NCBI GenBank assembly: GCA_902635545.1
Contig: CACPOL010000006.1
Coordinates: 1-64,000, forward strand
Reading direction: 5' to 3'
Length of the DNA stretch: 64,000 bases
Source: an uncultured Pelagibacteraceae bacterium
GTDB lineage: Bacteria; Pseudomonadota; Alphaproteobacteria; Pelagibacterales; Pelagibacteraceae
In this document: positions 22,092 through 33,705 of the stretch, in pieces
How the letters are laid out: every line of letters begins with the position of its first letter
Position numbering within the stretch: the first letter of the stretch is position 1
Program-made: the position numbers and the translations under genes
The notes under the pieces: model-generated
The model's input: only the letters and a program-made list of their open reading frames with translations
Databases searched by the model: none
What the model was told of the DNA's origin: nothing

Positions 22092-23711
22092 CTACATATT
22101 GCCATATTTTGGTCCACCTCCACCTTCAGGTGTAACCCAAATAATATTTTGTGAAGGTTCCTTTATATCGCAAGTTTTACAGTGAATACAATTCTGAGAA
22201 TTAATTACAAATTTATTAATATTGTTTTCTTTTTGGATTTCATAAACTCCAGCAGGACAATATCTTTGAGCAGGTTCATCAAATTGTTCTAATGTATAAC
22301 TAATAGGTAAATTTGGATCTTTTAATTGTAAATGCACTGGTTGATTTTCTGTATGATTTGTGCCTGTTAAATAAACTGAACTAGTTTTATCGAAAGTTAT
22401 AATATTGTCAGGTTTTGGATAATTAATTTTTGGCATTTGATTAGCAGGTTTTAAAGTTTCATGATCTGCATGCTTGTGTTTTAAAGTAAAAGGTAATCTA
22501 CCTCTAAATAAGATTTGATCTATACCTGTAAATATAATTCCAAGTATTAACCCCCAACTAAAACTTGGCTTTACATTTCTAGCTTTATACAGTTCTTCGT
22601 ATAACCAGCTTTTTTTAAATTTTTCTTCAAAAATAGATAAATCTTTTCCAGACAATATATGATCGTTTATTGACTCTGCTGCGATCATTCCACTTTTCAT
22701 TGCTGTGTGAGAGCCTTTTATCTTTGGCATATTGAGCGTGCCAGCATCACAACCGATAAGTAAAGCACCTGGCATAAACATTTTGGGTAAACTTTGAATA
22801 CCACCCTCAATTAATGCTCTAGCTCCATACGAAATTCTTTTGCCCCCTTCTATTATTTTTTTTATTGCTTTGTGAGTTTTAAATCTTTGAAATTCATCGA
22901 ATGGTGACAAGTGTGGATTCTTATAGTCTAAACCTATTACATAACCTAAGAAAACCTGTTTATTTTCTGCATGATATATAAAACTTCCACCATAAGTTTG
23001 GTTATCTAAGGGCCAGCCAGCTGTATGCATTACAAGTCCTTCTTCATGATTTTTTTCGTCTATTTCCCATATTTCTTTAAATCCAATTCCATATTGTTGA
23101 GGATCCTTTCCATTGTTAAGATTAAATTTTTCGATCAACTTTTTTCCTAAATGCCCTCTACAACCCTCTGCAAAAACAGTTACTTTTCCAACTAAATCTA
23201 TTCCAGGTTCAAAGCTGTCCTTTTTTTTTCCCTCTTTATCAATCCCCATATCTTGTGTGGCAACACCTTTTACAGATCCATCATCATTATACAAAACCTC
23301 GCTCGCTGGAAATCCTGGAAAAATTTCAACACCAAGCGCTTCGGCTTGTTCTGCCAACCATCTACATAAATTTGCTAAGCTTATGATATAATTTTTATGA
23401 TTTTGTTGCACTGAGGGTAGCAACCAAGTTGGCCAACTAAAAGATTTTGTTTTTCCCAAAAATAAAAATTTTTCTTTTGTGACTTTAGTTTTGATTGGAG
23501 AATTTAGTTCTTTCCAGTTAGGAATAAGTTCATCTAATGCTTTTGTCTCAAAAACATTTCCACTTAAAATATGTGCTCCAATTTCAGATGCTTTTTCAAG
23601 TAAACAAATACTTAGATTTGAATTCAATTGTTTTAATCTAATAGCAGTAGACAGTCCAGATGGACCACCACCAACAATTACTACATCATATTGCATTGTC
23701 TCTCTAGACAT
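22092..23711 (-). CDS. Electron transfer flavoprotein-ubiquinone oxidoreductase
   Basis: FAD motif VVIVGGGPSGLSTAIRL; C-terminal 4Fe-4S CIHCKTCDIKEPSQNIIWVTPEGGGGP. Confidence 0.95.
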   Translation of the reverse strand: MSRETMQYDVVIVGGGPSGLSTAIRLKQLNSNLSICLLEKASEIGAHILSGNVFETKALDELIPNWKELNSPIKTKVTKEKFLFLGKTKSFSWPTWLLPSVQQNHKNYIISLANLCRWLAEQAEALGVEIFPGFPASEVLYNDDGSVKGVATQDMGIDKEGKKKDSFEPGIDLVGKVTVFAEGCRGHLGKKLIEKFNLNNGKDPQQYGIGFKEIWEIDEKNHEEGLVMHTAGWPLDNQTYGGSFIYHAENKQVFLGYVIGLDYKNPHLSPFDEFQRFKTHKAIKKIIEGGKRISYGARALIEGGIQSLPKMFMPGALLIGCDAGTLNMPKIKGSHTAMKSGMIAAESINDHILSGKDLSIFEEKFKKSWLYEELYKARNVKPSFSWGLILGIIFTGIDQILFRGRLPFTLKHKHADHETLKPANQMPKINYPKPDNIITFDKTSSVYLTGTNHTENQPVHLQLKDPNLPISYTLEQFDEPAQRYCPAGVYEIQKENNINKFVINSQNCIHCKTCDIKEPSQNIIWVTPEGGGGPKYGNM

Positions 23712-23735: not shown

Positions 23736-24689
23736 TTATTTTTGTATAGTGTTTAATTTGTTCAATTCTTCTAAGAACTTGGGTAAAGCATCAAAAAGAT
23801 CAGCTTCTAAACCATAATCAGCAATACTAAATATCGGGGCCTCACCGTCTTTATTGATTGCTACAATAATTTTGCTTTCTTTCATTCCGGCTAAATGCTG
23901 AATAGCACCAGAAATCCCCACTGCAATATATAAGTCTGGAACTACAACTTTACCAGTTTGGCCGACTTGATGATCATTTGTTATATAACCAGCATCGACA
24001 GCTGCTCTAGAAGCACCTATTGCGGCGTTAAGTTTATCTGCAACAGCGGTGATCAACTTAAAATTTTCTCCACTTTGCATTCCTCTTCCTCCAGAAATTA
24101 CTACTCGTGCAGTGCCAAGCTCAGGTCTATCTGATTTGATTTCCTCTTTTTTTATAAATCTTGTTAAATCTGTTGAATCACCAGGATCACTCATTTGGAT
24201 TTCAGCAGAGCCACCAGAAGTTGGAGCAGGATCAAATGATGTAGGTCTAATTGTTACACATTTTATTTTGTCAGAACTTTTCACTGTTGCAAATGCATTC
24301 CCTGCATAAATTGGTCTTAAAAAAGTATCTTCAGAGATAACTTTTGTAATATCACTCACTTGAGAAACATCTAATAACGCAGCTACTCTTGGCATAAGAT
24401 TTTTACCAAATGTATTTGCAGAACAGACAATATGTGAATAATTTTTTGAAAGTTTTATAATTGCAGAAGTATAATTTTCGGCTAAGTAATTTTCATATAA
24501 AGAATTATTTACATGAAGTACTTTTTTTACATTTGGAACTTGAGAAATTGACTTAGCTACATTTTCTGAGTTTGAACCAAGCACTAATACATGAACATCT
24601 TCTTTAATTTTTGATGCAGCAGAGATGGCATTTAGAGTAAAAGGCTTGACTGCTTGATTATTATGTTCTGCTATTAATAAAACTGACAT
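23736..24689 (-). CDS. etfA: Electron transfer flavoprotein alpha subunit
   Basis: VISGGRGMQSGENF, GASRAAVDAGYITNDHQVGQTGKVVVPDLYIAVGISGAIQHLAGM. Confidence 0.96.
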   Translation of the reverse strand: MSVLLIAEHNNQAVKPFTLNAISAASKIKEDVHVLVLGSNSENVAKSISQVPNVKKVLHVNNSLYENYLAENYTSAIIKLSKNYSHIVCSANTFGKNLMPRVAALLDVSQVSDITKVISEDTFLRPIYAGNAFATVKSSDKIKCVTIRPTSFDPAPTSGGSAEIQMSDPGDSTDLTRFIKKEEIKSDRPELGTARVVISGGRGMQSGENFKLITAVADKLNAAIGASRAAVDAGYITNDHQVGQTGKVVVPDLYIAVGISGAIQHLAGMKESKIIVAINKDGEAPIFSIADYGLEADLFDALPKFLEELNKLNTIQK

Positions 24690-25438
24690 TATATTACTTT
24701 AGCCTCATTTTTTAATTTTTGAACTAATTCTTCAACAGTTGCGACTTTAATCCCAGCTTTTCTTTTTGGAGGCTCCTCAACTTTAATTTGTTCAATTCTA
24801 GGTTTTGTATCAACACCTAAATCACTTGCATTTATTTGCTCAATTGGCTTCTTTTTTGCTTTCATAATATTAGGTAATGAAGCATATCTAGGTTCATTTA
24901 ACCTTAAATCACAAGTTACAATCGCAGGTATATTGACCTCGATTATCTCTAGGCCCTCATCTACTTCTCTTGTAACCTCTAACAACTTATCTTTTAATTC
25001 AATCTTTGAAGCAAATGTAGCTTGAGGCCAATTCAAAAGTGCTGCTAACATCTGTCCAGTTTGATTACAATCATCATCAATAGCTTGCTTGCCCATAAAA
25101 ACTAAATCTGGTTTTTCTTTTTCAACAATTTTTTGTAAAACTTTTGAGACAGCAAGAGGTTCCACTATTCCATCAACTTTAACAAGTATACCACGATCTG
25201 CACCAACCGCTAAAGCTTTCCTGACTGTTTCTTGAGCTTTCTCTTCTCCAACAGATACTGCTATAACTTCACTGGCTTTACCAGACTCTTTAATTTTTAC
25301 TGCTTCTTCAATGGCATTATCATCAGGTGGATTAGTAGACATCTTTACATTTTCAGTTACTATACCTGATCCATCTTCCTTTACTCTTATTTGAACATTG
25401 TAATCAATAACTCTTTTAACCGCGACAAGAATTTTCAT
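24689..25438 (-). CDS. etfB: Electron transfer flavoprotein beta subunit
   Basis: [57 protein letters not shown]. Confidence 0.96.
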
Positions 25439-27870
25439 TATGCTCTCAATAATTTATTTTCAACATCATATGGACTTTCCTCTAAAATAGTTGCCTCATA
25501 TTTTTTTCCTAATATATCTACTTTAAGTTTTTCTCCAACATTAGCCAAATCTGGTTTAACCATTGCAAGTGCAATTGATTTATCTAACCTAAAGCCATAT
25601 TCGCCACCAGTAGCTCGTCCAACGACTTTATCATCTTTGTAGATTGGATTATTACCTAAAACATCAGAGTCAGTCGTGTTATGAACTTCTAAAGTAACTA
25701 ATTTATTATCAAAACCTTTTTCTCTCCACTTGTTTAAAGCATCAAGACCAATAAAATTTCCTTTATTTGGATGAATGAATCTATCTAAGCCTGACTCATA
25801 TGGAGAATATTCAATTGATAGTTCAGTGCCAACAAGCTTATACGATTTTTCAACTCTCAAACTATTCATAGCTCTAATTCCAAAAGGTTTAATGCCTAGA
25901 TCTTTTCCAGCTTCCATTAATTTGTCAAATATATGATTTTGATATTCAATAGGATGATGTAATTCCCATCCTAGTTCACCCACAAAATTAACTCTCATAG
26001 CATTTACTGGCGCATATCCTACATTCACATTTTTAGAAGTCAGCCATTTAAAGTTTTCATTAGAAAAATCATCTGTTGAAACTTTTTGCATTAATTGTCT
26101 AGATTTTGGGCCTGCAACAACAAGTACACCGGTACTATTTGTCAAATCTTCAAAAATTACTGAACCATCATTTGGCATCCATTTTTGTATCCAATCATGA
26201 TCTAATCTTAAATTAGCACCAGCTGAAACTAAATAATAACTATTTTCAGCCTCTTTCATTATAGTGAATTCTGAATGCACACCTCCTTTGGTATTTAGAG
26301 CATGACATAAATTTATTCTACCAATTTTTTTTGGGAGTTTGTTAGCTACTAAATAATCTAAAAATTCTTCTGCCTTCGGTCCTTTAATCCTACACTTTGC
26401 AAATGCTGTCATATCTAATAAACCAACGTTTTCTTTTACATTTTGGCATTCTTTCTTAATTGCATCGAACCATTTAGATCTTCTAAAAGACCAATCATCT
26501 TTTTGTTCCATACCATCAGTCGCAAAAAAGTTTGGTCTTTCCCATCCAAATTTTTGTCCAAAGACAGCTCCAAGTGCTTTCATCCTTTCATAGCAAGGTG
26601 AAGTTCTTAATGGCCTGGCAGCTGGTCTTTCTTCATCTGGATAATGCACTATAAAGACATGACTATAAGCCTCTTCATTTTTAGCTTTTAAATAAGACTT
26701 AGTCGCATAATTTCCATAACGTCTTGGTTCTACTCCAAGCATATCTATCGTGGGTTCTCCATCCACAATCCATTCTGCTAATTGCCATCCCGCTCCACCT
26801 GCCGCAGTAATTCCAAAACTATGTCCCTCGTTAATCCAAAAATTTTTTAATCCCCAAGCGGGACCAACTATTGGATTTCCATCTGGAGTATAACAAATTG
26901 CTCCATTATAAACTTTTTTAACTCCTACTTCTCCAAACGCTGGTACGCGATGTATTGCACCTTCAATATGAGGAGCGAGTCTATCTAGATCTTCTTGAAA
27001 CAACTCATACTCTGAATTTTTTGAGGGTCCCTCAACATAACAAGCTGGTGCTCCATCTTCATATGGGCCTAATATTAATCCACCTGCTTCTTCTCTCATA
27101 TACCATCTGCTATCACTGTCTCTCAACACTCCCATTTCAGGTAGACCTTCTTTTTTTCTTTTTTGAATTTCTGGATGTGGTTCTGTTACAATATATTGAT
27201 GTTCTACTGGAATAACCGGTATATCTAATCCGACCATTTCTCCAGTTTGTCTTGCAAAATTTCCTGAGCAAGAGATTATGTGTTCACATTCAATTGAACC
27301 TTTATCTGTTTCAACTATCCACCCCTCTCTAGTTTGCCTCATTGCTATAACTGTTGTGTTTCTATAAATTTCAGCTCCTCTATTTCTTGCACCTGTTGCT
27401 AAAGCCTGTGTTAAGTCTGCTGGTTGAATATATCCATCTTCTGGATGTTGAATTGCTCCGACTAAATCATCTGTGTTACACAAAGGCCAAATTTCTTTTA
27501 CCTGTTGTGGAGTTAAAAATTTTACATCTACCCCAATTGTTTTAGCTACACCAGCATATTGATAGTACTCGTCCATTCTATCTTTAGTACTCGCTAATCG
27601 AATATTTGATACGACACTAAAACCAACATTTTTTCCAGTTTCTTCCTCTAATTTTTTATAAAGATCAACTGCATATTTATGAAGTTGACCAACAGAATAA
27701 CTCATATTAAAAAGTGGTAATAGTCCAGCAGCATGCCAAGTTGAACCGGACGTAAGTTCTTTTCTTTCGACTAAAACAACATCTGACCATCCTTTTTTTG
27801 CTAAATGGTAAAGAGCACTAACACCAACTACTCCTCCACCAACAACTACTACTTTTGTTTTAGTTTTCAT
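25438..27870 (-). CDS. Dimethylglycine/sarcosine dehydrogenase-like FAD oxidoreductase with GcvT domain
   Basis: 810 aa: DAO domain with GSTWHAAGL (His typical of covalent FAD in DMGDH) plus C-terminal aminomethyltransferase domain ([10 protein letters not shown]). Confidence 0.88.
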
Positions 27871-30739: not shown

Positions 30740-31114
30740 CTACTTAAGCTTTCCTTCTTCTCTCATTTTAGCTCTAATTTTTGTTGCTGAAATTTCTTGA
30801 ATTTCTTTTGGAAGTTCAATTTCCTCAATTTTATATCCTACACCTCTCCCATAACAAATATTTGTTATATTGGGCACTAACATAATCTTAAATCGTCCCT
30901 CAAATTCTGGGTTTAATCTATTTTCTATATTTTTTTTTACGGTTTCAAAATCAAATGGATTATCATCTACGCCTTGTACATCTCTAATTTGAATACAAAC
31001 TTGACCTGTTTTTTTTATTATTTCTTTAAAAAGACTATAATGACCCTCATGAAATGGTTGCCATCTCCCGAGCATTTGTGCAGTAGGTTTTTTATTATCC
31101 CATTTATATGACAT
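30740..31114 (-). CDS. Cytidylyltransferase/NMNAT-like nucleotidyltransferase
   Basis: HxGH-type GRWQPFHEGHYSLF and ISATKIRAKM motifs, 124 aa. Confidence 0.75.
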   Translation of the reverse strand: MSYKWDNKKPTAQMLGRWQPFHEGHYSLFKEIIKKTGQVCIQIRDVQGVDDNPFDFETVKKNIENRLNPEFEGRFKIMLVPNITNICYGRGVGYKIEEIELPKEIQEISATKIRAKMREEGKLK

Positions 31115-31521
31115 TATTTAATTTCCTTTAATATTTTAGGTGCCCAATTTTTAGCATCTTGCGTTGGAACATGAAAGTCATACTTATCGGGTTTTACAAA
31201 CATTTTATTAGTATCTTCAAATCTACCCTCTTTTATAGTGTCCATCCAAATGATGAAATCTGCTGGGAATAGTTGTCTTGCTTCTGGGGTCGGGCAAATA
31301 AAGTCTGCAACAACATAATTCCCCTCATCTCTCAATTTTATTGCTAAATCTGCCATTCTTTTTGCCTGACGCTTTCTTCCTTCCTCAGAAAAATCCCAAT
31401 CATTAGCTTTTTTTCTCACTTCATCTGCGTTCAGTCTTTTAGCATTAAGCATTGGCCCCAATTCATTAGCCAAGGTTGTCTTACCAGAGCCTGGTAAGCC
31501 CATAATTAATATAATCTTCAT
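31114..31521 (-). CDS. P-loop kinase, adenylylsulfate kinase (CysC)-like
   Basis: MGLPGSGKTTLANEL Walker A, LNADEVRKKANDWDFSEEGRKRQAKRMADLA resembles APS kinase, but short (135 aa). Confidence 0.7.
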   Translation of the reverse strand: MKIILIMGLPGSGKTTLANELGPMLNAKRLNADEVRKKANDWDFSEEGRKRQAKRMADLAIKLRDEGNYVVADFICPTPEARQLFPADFIIWMDTIKEGRFEDTNKMFVKPDKYDFHVPTQDAKNWAPKILKEIK

Positions 31522-31625: not shown

Positions 31626-32354
31626 ATGAAATTTTCTTTAGAAATAAGTCCTACTACTGATCTTGCTACGGTTCCACCTGTAAATGATGTATACATCACT
31701 ATGTTACCAGGAGGAGATTATAAAGAGACAGCACAACAAGCGGTTGAGCTAGTTAAAAAAGGATTTAACCCTGTGCCTCATTTTCCAGCAAGATCCATGA
31801 AAAATGAAAAAGAATTAAAGGATTATGTAAATATATGTAAAGATGGTGGGGTTAAACAAGCTCTAATTATTGGTGGTGGTAGAGAACCATTGGGAAAATT
31901 TGATAGCTCTTTTCAACTTTTAGAAACTGGCTATTTTGAAAAAATGAAGATAGGAATTGCTGGACACCCAGAGGGGAGTCCTGATATATCCGATTCAGAT
32001 TTAGAAAAAGCTATGATAGATAAAAAGCCTTATGCTGATTATATAGTAACTCAATGGTTATTAGATCATCAGCCTATTATAGATTTTATTTCTAAACAAA
32101 GCGTGCCAGTGCATGTTGGAATTACTGGGCCTCTTAAAATATCTAGCCTAATAAAATTCGCTAATATTGTTGGAGCAAAAAATTCCCTAAACTTTCTTAA
32201 ATCTAATTTTAGTAAGGCGTTAGATTTACTGAAACCTAAAGACCCTAATGATTTAATTGGAAAAGTTAAATCTCATACTGATTTTTTCCACATTTATACA
32301 TTCGGCGGCTTGAAGGAAACAAACAAGTGGTTGAAGGAGAATAGTTATGTCTAA
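31626..32354 (+). CDS. MetF-like (methylenetetrahydrofolate reductase family) protein, short form
   Basis: FSLEISPTTD, PHFPARSMKNEKELKDYV, LIIGGGREPLGKFDSSFQLLETGYF, GIAGHPEGSPD resemble MTHFR family motifs; 242 aa. Confidence 0.8.
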   Translation: MKFSLEISPTTDLATVPPVNDVYITMLPGGDYKETAQQAVELVKKGFNPVPHFPARSMKNEKELKDYVNICKDGGVKQALIIGGGREPLGKFDSSFQLLETGYFEKMKIGIAGHPEGSPDISDSDLEKAMIDKKPYADYIVTQWLLDHQPIIDFISKQSVPVHVGITGPLKISSLIKFANIVGAKNSLNFLKSNFSKALDLLKPKDPNDLIGKVKSHTDFFHIYTFGGLKETNKWLKENSYV

Positions 32355-33705
32355 AGAATTTGACTATACTAAATTAAAACATGTAACTTCTGTTGATCAA
32401 TCTGATAGAGAAGTTCCTTACAATTTAAGACAAAGTGGACCTACTAAAGTTGAAATGTTGATCTCAACAAGAGTAAGAAAATCACCTTATTGGCATTTAT
32501 CAATGCAAGCTGGTTGTTGGAGAGCAACTGTTTACAATCGTATATATCACCCAAGAGGATATGTTAAACCAGAGGATGGTGGTGCTATGGTTGAATATGA
32601 TGCAATAGTTAATCATGTAACAATGTGGAACGTTGCAGTTGAAAGACAAATTAGAGTTAAGGGCCCAGATGCAGAAAAATTTGTTGATTATGTCATAACG
32701 AGAGATGCGACTAAAATTTCACCAATGCGTGCAAGATATGTAATTTTATGTAATGCTTATGGTGGAGTTTTAAACGATCCAATTCTTTTAAGAATTTCAA
32801 AAGATGAATTTTGGTTTTCTTTATCAGACTCTGATATTGGAATGTATCTTCAAGGAGTAAATGCAGACGGAAAATATAATTGTGACGTTGAAGAAATAGA
32901 TGCATGCCCAGTTCAAATTCAAGGACCAAAATCGAAAGCTTTGATGAAAGATCTTTGTGGAGATCAATTTGATTTAGATAACATGCCCTTTTATGGATTA
33001 GCAGAAGCAAAAATTGGTGGAAGAAGTTGTGTAATATCGCAATCTGGATTTTCAGGAGAAGCGGGATATGAAATATATTTAAGAAATGCAACTTTATACG
33101 CAGACGATATGTGGAATGCTGTTCTTGAGGCTGGAAAAAAACATAATTTAATGGTTATTGCTCCAGCTCATCATAGAAGAATTCAAGCAGGAATTCTTTC
33201 TTGGGGGCAGGATATGGATCAACAACATAATCCATTCCAATGTAATTTAGGATATCAGGTTTCGTTATCTGGAAAAGGAGAATGGAACAAAAAAACAGAT
33301 TACGTTGGCAAGAAAGCTCTTGAAAAAATGAAGTCTGAACTTAAAGCAGGAAAAAAACCATATAAATTACAATTAGTAGGTTTTGAATTAGGTGGAAAGC
33401 CAATTGAAGATTATGCGCCTGATTTTTGGTTAATATCAAATCATGATGGTGGAGATCCAGTAGGATTTGTAACTTCTCCTTGGTATCATCCAGAAAAAAA
33501 AAAGAATATAGCAATGGGATATGTGCCATTTGATGGAACCTTAAATGCTAATGGTTTCCCAAAAGGAAAAGTAGGTACTAAATATAAAATTCATCTGCCT
33601 GAAAAATATTCAGAAAAACCAGGTTCACCAGTGGATGCACATATTGTTGATATACCATTTAAAGAATCCTACAATGCAAATACCAGGGAAGTCTCTAAAG
33701 GATAA
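32347..33705 (+). CDS. GcvT/DmdA-like THF-dependent aminomethyl- or methyltransferase (demethylase), substrate unknown
   Basis: 452 aa; STRVRKSPYW, MWNVAVERQIRVKGPDAEKFVDYVITRD, QIQGPKSKALM, SGFSGEAGYEIYLR; longer than canonical DmdA. Confidence 0.8.
   Translation: MSKEFDYTKLKHVTSVDQSDREVPYNLRQSGPTKVEMLISTRVRKSPYWHLSMQAGCWRATVYNRIYHPRGYVKPEDGGAMVEYDAIVNHVTMWNVAVERQIRVKGPDAEKFVDYVITRDATKISPMRARYVILCNAYGGVLNDPILLRISKDEFWFSLSDSDIGMYLQGVNADGKYNCDVEEIDACPVQIQGPKSKALMKDLCGDQFDLDNMPFYGLAEAKIGGRSCVISQSGFSGEAGYEIYLRNATLYADDMWNAVLEAGKKHNLMVIAPAHHRRIQAGILSWGQDMDQQHNPFQCNLGYQVSLSGKGEWNKKTDYVGKKALEKMKSELKAGKKPYKLQLVGFELGGKPIEDYAPDFWLISNHDGGDPVGFVTSPWYHPEKKKNIAMGYVPFDGTLNANGFPKGKVGTKYKIHLPEKYSEKPGSPVDAHIVDIPFKESYNANTREVSKG

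Follow-up and report, generated by a model that had tools for sequence, protein, structure and literature searches.

Which compound gives up its methyl group to a GcvT/DmdA-superfamily protein that is encoded, in an uncultured SAR11 bacterium, directly behind a short homologue of methylene-THF reductase (MetF)? The gene pair lies in a 64,000-nt stretch of DNA (hereafter the window) from a SAR11 assembly of 968 kb that is 82% complete, and the features that we discuss are collected in Table 1. An original prediction had described a 242-aa MetF overlapping by 8 nt a GcvT-family protein of 452 aa, here called P0002, and both open reading frames and the overlap are found in the window as described. 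Pfam recognizes the GCV_T (137 bits) and GCV_T_C (27 bits) domains in P0002, and orthologues with 81-94% identity are present in most SAR11 genomes searched. Moreover, metF stands directly before P0002 in 80 of the 80 Pelagibacter loci that we fetched, the two genes overlapping by 8 nt at 60 loci and by 14 nt at the other 20. These domains, the orthologues, and the conserved gene order indicate that both are real genes.

Table 1. Locations of the features discussed (positions refer to the window unless another locus or record is given).
Feature	Location	Strand	Length	Description
metF (P0001)	31626-32354	+	242 aa	short methylene-THF reductase homologue
P0002	32347-33705	+	452 aa	GcvT/DmdA-superfamily; GCV_T and GCV_T_C domains, clade, gene context
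DMGDH homologue	25438-27870	-	810 aa	full-length match to rat DMGDH 4p9s, 660 bits
ETF beta subunit	24689-25438	-		Pfam ETF, 151 bits; adjoins DMGDH gene
ETF alpha subunit	23736-24689	-		Pfam ETF and ETF_alpha
ETF-ubiquinone oxidoreductase (ETF-QO)	22092-23711	-		Pfam Fer4_ETF_QO and ETFQO_UQ-bd
APS-kinase-like protein and small nucleotidyltransferase-looking protein	30740-31521	-		just upstream of metF
Protein after P0002	33850-34395	+	181 aa	likewise in most Pelagibacter loci
Rieske oxygenase of the G012 locus	L171:3559-4764	-	402 aa	divergent to metF
SAM-type methyltransferase	L105:866-1495	-	209 aa	Methyltransf_11; also at related loci
DmdA-like paralogue, SAR11 family f2	L165:7160-8296	+		directly downstream of P0002
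DmdA-like paralogue, SAR11 family f2	L168:4526-5683	-
Further GcvT-family clade	L161:4114-5253
Further GcvT-family clade	L162:3720-4871
Further GcvT-family clade	L164:3510-4649
Further GcvT-family clade	L169:4384-5523
Further GcvT-family clade	L159:6971-8113
P0002 relative (H31)	MT835505.1:32890-34032			Bacteriophage sp. record, human faeces

Two of the genes that flank the pair have no Pfam match, namely those for the 181-aa protein downstream of P0002 and for the small nucleotidyltransferase-looking protein on the other side. The latter reappears, as does the APS-kinase-like gene, at other SAR11 loci. The APS-kinase-like gene is present even though SAR11 have been reported to lack assimilatory sulfate reduction. 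A search with Rfam of the window and eight related loci found no riboswitch at metF-P0002.

The pair had been taken for an undescribed module, but it corresponds to SAR11_1264/SAR11_1265 of Ca. Pelagibacter ubique, a correspondence drawn from the descriptions in published papers rather than from the HTCC1062 sequences. According to the accessible part of the paper by Sun et al. (2011; PMC3160333), which by its description concerns the same arrangement of metF and an adjoining aminomethyltransferase close to DmdA, the substrate of SAR11_1265 was called unknown, and the enzyme was speculated to take off the second methyl group of DMSP by demethylating MMPA. The gene context in the accessible text covered three SAR11 Ia genomes. 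A sulfur study from 2016 found that mRNA of SAR11_1264/1265 fell to 0.10-0.20 of its exponential-phase level in later conditions (PMC5069961).

As judged from its sequence, P0002 is not DmdA. It scores 228.4 bits on the NCBIfam DmdA equivalog model, below the cutoff of 410, and it also stays below the cutoffs of the NCBIfam models for GcvT (151 of 300, 131 of 236, and 117 of 459 bits), LigM (39.6 of 580 bits), and DesA (41.4 of 800 bits). In a tree of 45 GcvT-domain proteins, P0002 and its SAR11, alphaproteobacterial, and haloarchaeal orthologues form one clade (support 98/93), and DmdA and its closest paralogues form another (100/99) that does not include P0002. The DMSP-linked tryptophan of DmdA (W171 in the numbering of PMC7487153, taken as W197 on an assumed shift in numbering) is replaced by phenylalanine in 24 of 25 clade members (F235 in P0002), though this column is weak evidence alone, since the plasmid DmdA of Phaeobacter has a tyrosine there. 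Conversely, the THF residues of DmdA (S122, E204, and Y206) are kept in P0002 as S158, E242, and Y244 and are invariant in the clade, and the N-D-P motif is common to both proteins, P0002 having N-D where GcvT has D-D. DmdA (3tfh) thus shares with P0002 the GcvT fold and, by analogy, a methyl-THF product, but it is only about 30% identical to P0002, stands among other neighbours, and is some 80 residues shorter (368-369 aa). As predicted, the additional length includes an insert (residues ~67-82, YHPRGYVKPEDGGAM) and an extended C-terminal region; the insert segment YHPRGYVKPEDGG and the C-terminal part are traits of the entire P0002 clade, whose members span 406-462 aa, mostly 428-462. A grouping inside DmdA with identical active-site residues, which would have refuted the original prediction, was thus looked for and not found, and a substrate other than DMSP is probable, as predicted. 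An AlphaFold2 model built from 20 Pelagibacter sequences (pLDDT 42) was too low in confidence for use.

Two further relatives were seen in the course of this comparison. A GcvT-family clade of ~380-aa proteins, distinct from both DmdA and P0002, is common to SAR11 and Phaeobacter, and a protein 40% identical to P0002 occurs in a phage record, where it is probably bacterial sequence.

A role in the DMSP pathway, either as a second DmdA or on MMPA as Sun et al. guessed, nevertheless has points in its favour. The solved structure nearest to P0002 is DmdA (150 bits), an OpuAC neighbour discussed below resembles a DMSP-binding protein, and in SAR11 family f2 a DmdB-like ligase (59% to SAR11 DmdB) is encoded near the locus. 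The flanking of the f2 locus by this ligase gene and a DmdA-like paralogue also counts against glycine betaine (GBT) as substrate. On the DmdA model the adjacent paralogue scores 372 bits against the cutoff of 410, and it could itself explain the DmdB-like gene. Furthermore, no dmdBCD genes were recognized at the alphaproteobacterial or haloarchaeal loci examined, and MMPA is a thioether and as such a poor methyl donor to THF. Together with the score, the clade, and the replaced tryptophan, these observations make a DMSP-pathway role of P0002 quite unlikely.

The nature of the methyl donor is further narrowed by the short MetF. In the PDB it has a single strong match, 7xg9 (118 bits), which we take to be S6MTHFR of Sphingobium, the partner of LigM. 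On the Pfam MTHFR model it scores 20.9 bits, just under the cutoff of 24, and on canonical MetF models 22-28 bits against about 300; it is the one MTHFR homologue found in the assembly. S6MTHFR is reported to oxidise the methyl-THF made by LigM, and the LigM/S6MTHFR system of Sphingobium SYK-6, in which a demethylase that uses THF works together with a short MTHFR acting oxidatively, would be an analogue of the present pair with a different donor, an aromatic ether (PMC12585457). The MetF match and a length of P0002 similar to that of LigM and DesA would suit an O-demethylase of methoxylated aromatics, but we regard such an activity as highly improbable, as P0002 scores only about 40 bits on either model and no aromatic-catabolism genes were recognized beside it at the loci examined. 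P0002 as a LigM-like protein was dropped on the model scores. SAR11 lack both MetE and MetH (PMC12478193), and the one PF02574 protein that the assembly encodes belongs to the short MmuM type, which leaves MetF as the only known sink for methyl-THF here. A redox-neutral transfer of the methyl group from a donor of the onium type, the kind of reaction that DmdA carries out, is thereby suggested, and the short MetF would work in the oxidative direction. The predicted coupling of a methyl-THF-forming demethylase to MetF is supported. Given methyl-THF as product and an onium donor, the conversion of GBT to dimethylglycine (DMG) would be the sole such step in the pathway that the neighbouring genes suggest.

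We propose that P0002 is a candidate THF-dependent GBT demethylase that removes the first methyl group to give DMG, a reading to which we assign a probability of roughly two in three. In the window, a DMGDH gene 3.8 kb from metF is the first in a run with genes for ETF-beta, ETF-alpha, and ETF-QO. The metF-P0002 neighbourhood had been anticipated correctly as far as the pair itself is concerned, but the GBT and C1-oxidation gene set in the window, including this DMGDH-ETF operon, had been missed. Among the 56 full-length Pelagibacter loci, i.e. those with 8 kb on either side, 55 encode a DMGDH-type flavoprotein within 8 kb of metF-P0002. Two different flavoproteins (35% identical) occur in several arrangements, which argues that the association with P0002 is not one frozen block and favours GBT as the substrate. 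The same is suggested by betaine-type transporter genes, an OpuAC protein and a betaine/choline-type (ProW/ChoW-like) permease, which lie on the same strand ~60 nt upstream of metF in 21 of 80 loci. The OpuAC protein has a betaine-type binding domain, but its best PDB match is DmpX, a DMSP-binding protein, which counts against GBT. A formate-THF ligase is encoded nearby in 17 of 80 loci and adjoins metF in family f2. Two complete genomes of a sister genus in the same family are missing P0002, MetF, and DMGDH together, and this joint absence also speaks for GBT.

Other genes of these clusters complicate the assignment. A Bhmt-type gene is present in the cluster at 19 of 80 loci, and the second flavoprotein at 19 of 80. 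Human BHMT (1lt7) is the PDB match (162 bits) of one of the Bhmt-type proteins, and NCBIfam returned no match for the Bhmt/MmuM proteins at E <= 1e-60. Strains with bhmt in the cluster already own a GBT demethylase candidate, which weighs against P0002 acting on GBT. So does a Rieske oxygenase that adjoins the locus in 45 of 80 cases and is absent from the window. The one at the G012 locus has carnitine monooxygenase as its best PDB match (114 bits), and it was not filed as GbcA, since it scores 125 bits on that model against a cutoff of 670. At some loci the 209-aa methyltransferase listed in Table 1 is encoded with the Rieske gene on one side and the second flavoprotein on the other, and an unmatched protein cluster related to it occurs in 38 of 80 loci.

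The Rieske oxygenase and SAM methyltransferase that accompany the locus in many SAR11, and the breadth of the transporter family, would also suit a P0002 that produced methyl-THF from another quaternary amine (e.g. proline betaine, carnitine, choline, or homarine), its GBT-related neighbours only sharing transporter and C1 genes with it. Our literature search for homarine as the substrate gave no usable lead. More generally, the partners of P0002 that recur in SAR11, in several other alphaproteobacterial genera, and in haloarchaea are those for the demethylation of DMG and sarcosine, compounds that arise from GBT and not from these other amines, and we therefore consider a different quaternary amine unlikely.

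The association with GBT degradation extends beyond SAR11. Of 385 Alphaproteobacteria genomes, 19 encode P0002 (E <= 1e-75), and a DMGDH orthologue is found in 15 of these 19 compared to 60 of the 366 without P0002 (Fisher 1.3e-8, or 8.6e-7 with SAR11 left out, both values overstating significance because the counts take related genomes as independent). In five non-SAR11 genera, P0002 and DMGDH lie within 12 kb of each other. This co-occurrence and proximity argue for GBT as the substrate. In one of these genera (genome G261), P0002, DMGDH, ETFB, ETFA, and ETF-QO form a run with one small opposite-strand ORF between. In a further genus (L140, L141, and L154), metF and P0002 share a same-strand run with soxBDAG and a DMGDH-like gene, which likewise points to GBT, although its DMGDH-like protein is only ~32% identical to the DMGDH of the window, a point against this reading.

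Orthologues of P0002 with 50-57% identity are also found on 16 haloarchaeal plasmid records, of which we examined the loci of seven, and an MTHFR gene is close to P0002 in six. The seventh, from Haloarcula sp. GH36, has no MTHFR or similar neighbours by P0002. In Haladaptatus salinisoli, a 19-kb stretch encodes formate dehydrogenase, formate-THF ligase (FTHFS), folP, P0002, SHMT, MTHFR, two flavoproteins, and threonine ammonia-lyase; overlapping gene sets accompany P0002 in Salinigranum, Halorientalis, Halobellus, and Haloarcula marismortui, and the Halomicrococcus locus includes a BCCT transporter. The Haladaptatus orthologue of P0002 is WP_227356502.1, and the two flavoproteins encoded near it can be matched over their whole length to dimethylglycine oxidase of Arthrobacter, with 568 and 572 bits. 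The set reads as a route from GBT through DMG, sarcosine, glycine, and serine to pyruvate, combined with C1 oxidation, in which the first step alone would be without a known enzyme, and these megaplasmid sets thereby favour GBT as the substrate of P0002. A previous study placed dimethylglycine oxidase genes of haloarchaea near BCCT transporters and named no GBT demethylase (PMC3102087).

Known routes from GBT to DMG are GbcAB, Bhmt, and MtgBCD, and a study from 2025, which found MtgBCD, a cobalamin-dependent system, in marine bacteria other than SAR11, proposed Bhmt as the only route used by SAR11 (PMC12478193). MtgB was found in none of the SAR11 genomes that we tested. Among the 22 SAR11 genomes that are at least 90% complete, P0002 is encoded by 21 and a Bhmt-type protein by 13, and eight have P0002 without Bhmt. 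Two complete SAR11 genomes (G307 and G397) encode P0002, MetF, and DMGDH yet neither a Bhmt-type protein nor MtgB, their PF02574 protein being of the MmuM type only, which further argues for GBT as the substrate; a Rieske oxygenase adjoins the P0002 locus in both. Beyond SAR11, the G261 genome (96% complete, with P0002 and DMGDH) gave no Bhmt-type, MtgB, or Rieske match.

We hypothesize that P0002, acting free of cobalamin and O2, would convert GBT and THF directly to DMG and 5-methyl-THF, which the overlapping short MetF would oxidise to 5,10-methylene-THF, with FolD and Fhs carrying the latter on to formate. The nearby DMGDH would demethylate DMG, passing electrons through ETF and the ETF-QO of its operon, and a sarcosine dehydrogenase or oxidase would in turn take the methyl group off sarcosine. 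The fold and the logic of this scheme, a GcvT-family methyl transfer to THF coupled to MetF, are already known from DmdA and LigM, and what would be new is the substrate and a module common to SAR11 and haloarchaea. We know of no other protein with the GcvT fold for which a quaternary ammonium would pass its methyl group straight to THF. MtgBCD of Ruegeria pomeroyi (PMC12478193), as proposed here for P0002, moves a methyl group of GBT to THF in an aerobic marine bacterium, but is multi-subunit and cobalamin-dependent. Bhmt, the GBT demethylase proposed for SAR11, belongs to an unrelated family and uses homocysteine as the acceptor. In a literature search that had most subscription papers and preprints outside it, we found no proposal of P0002 as a GBT demethylase. 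We lean towards regarding P0002 as a further class of GBT demethylase, a single GcvT-family protein on which THF would directly receive the methyl group of a quaternary ammonium, with no need of cobalamin, O2, or homocysteine, and that occurs in SAR11, scattered Alphaproteobacteria, and haloarchaeal megaplasmids, being commoner than Bhmt in the SAR11 sampled.

GBT ranks with the most abundant osmolytes of the sea, and of the organisms likely to consume it, SAR11 are the most numerous. The view that SAR11 rely on Bhmt alone ties GBT demethylation to methionine synthesis, and many SAR11 genomes lack Bhmt. If P0002 is indeed a GBT demethylase, it would be a candidate for the missing first step of the predicted GBT use by haloarchaea (PMC3102087), and bhmt would be wrong as the sole marker gene of GBT turnover by SAR11. 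These bacteria would then oxidise all three methyl groups of GBT for energy, limited neither by vitamin B12 nor by their demand for methionine.
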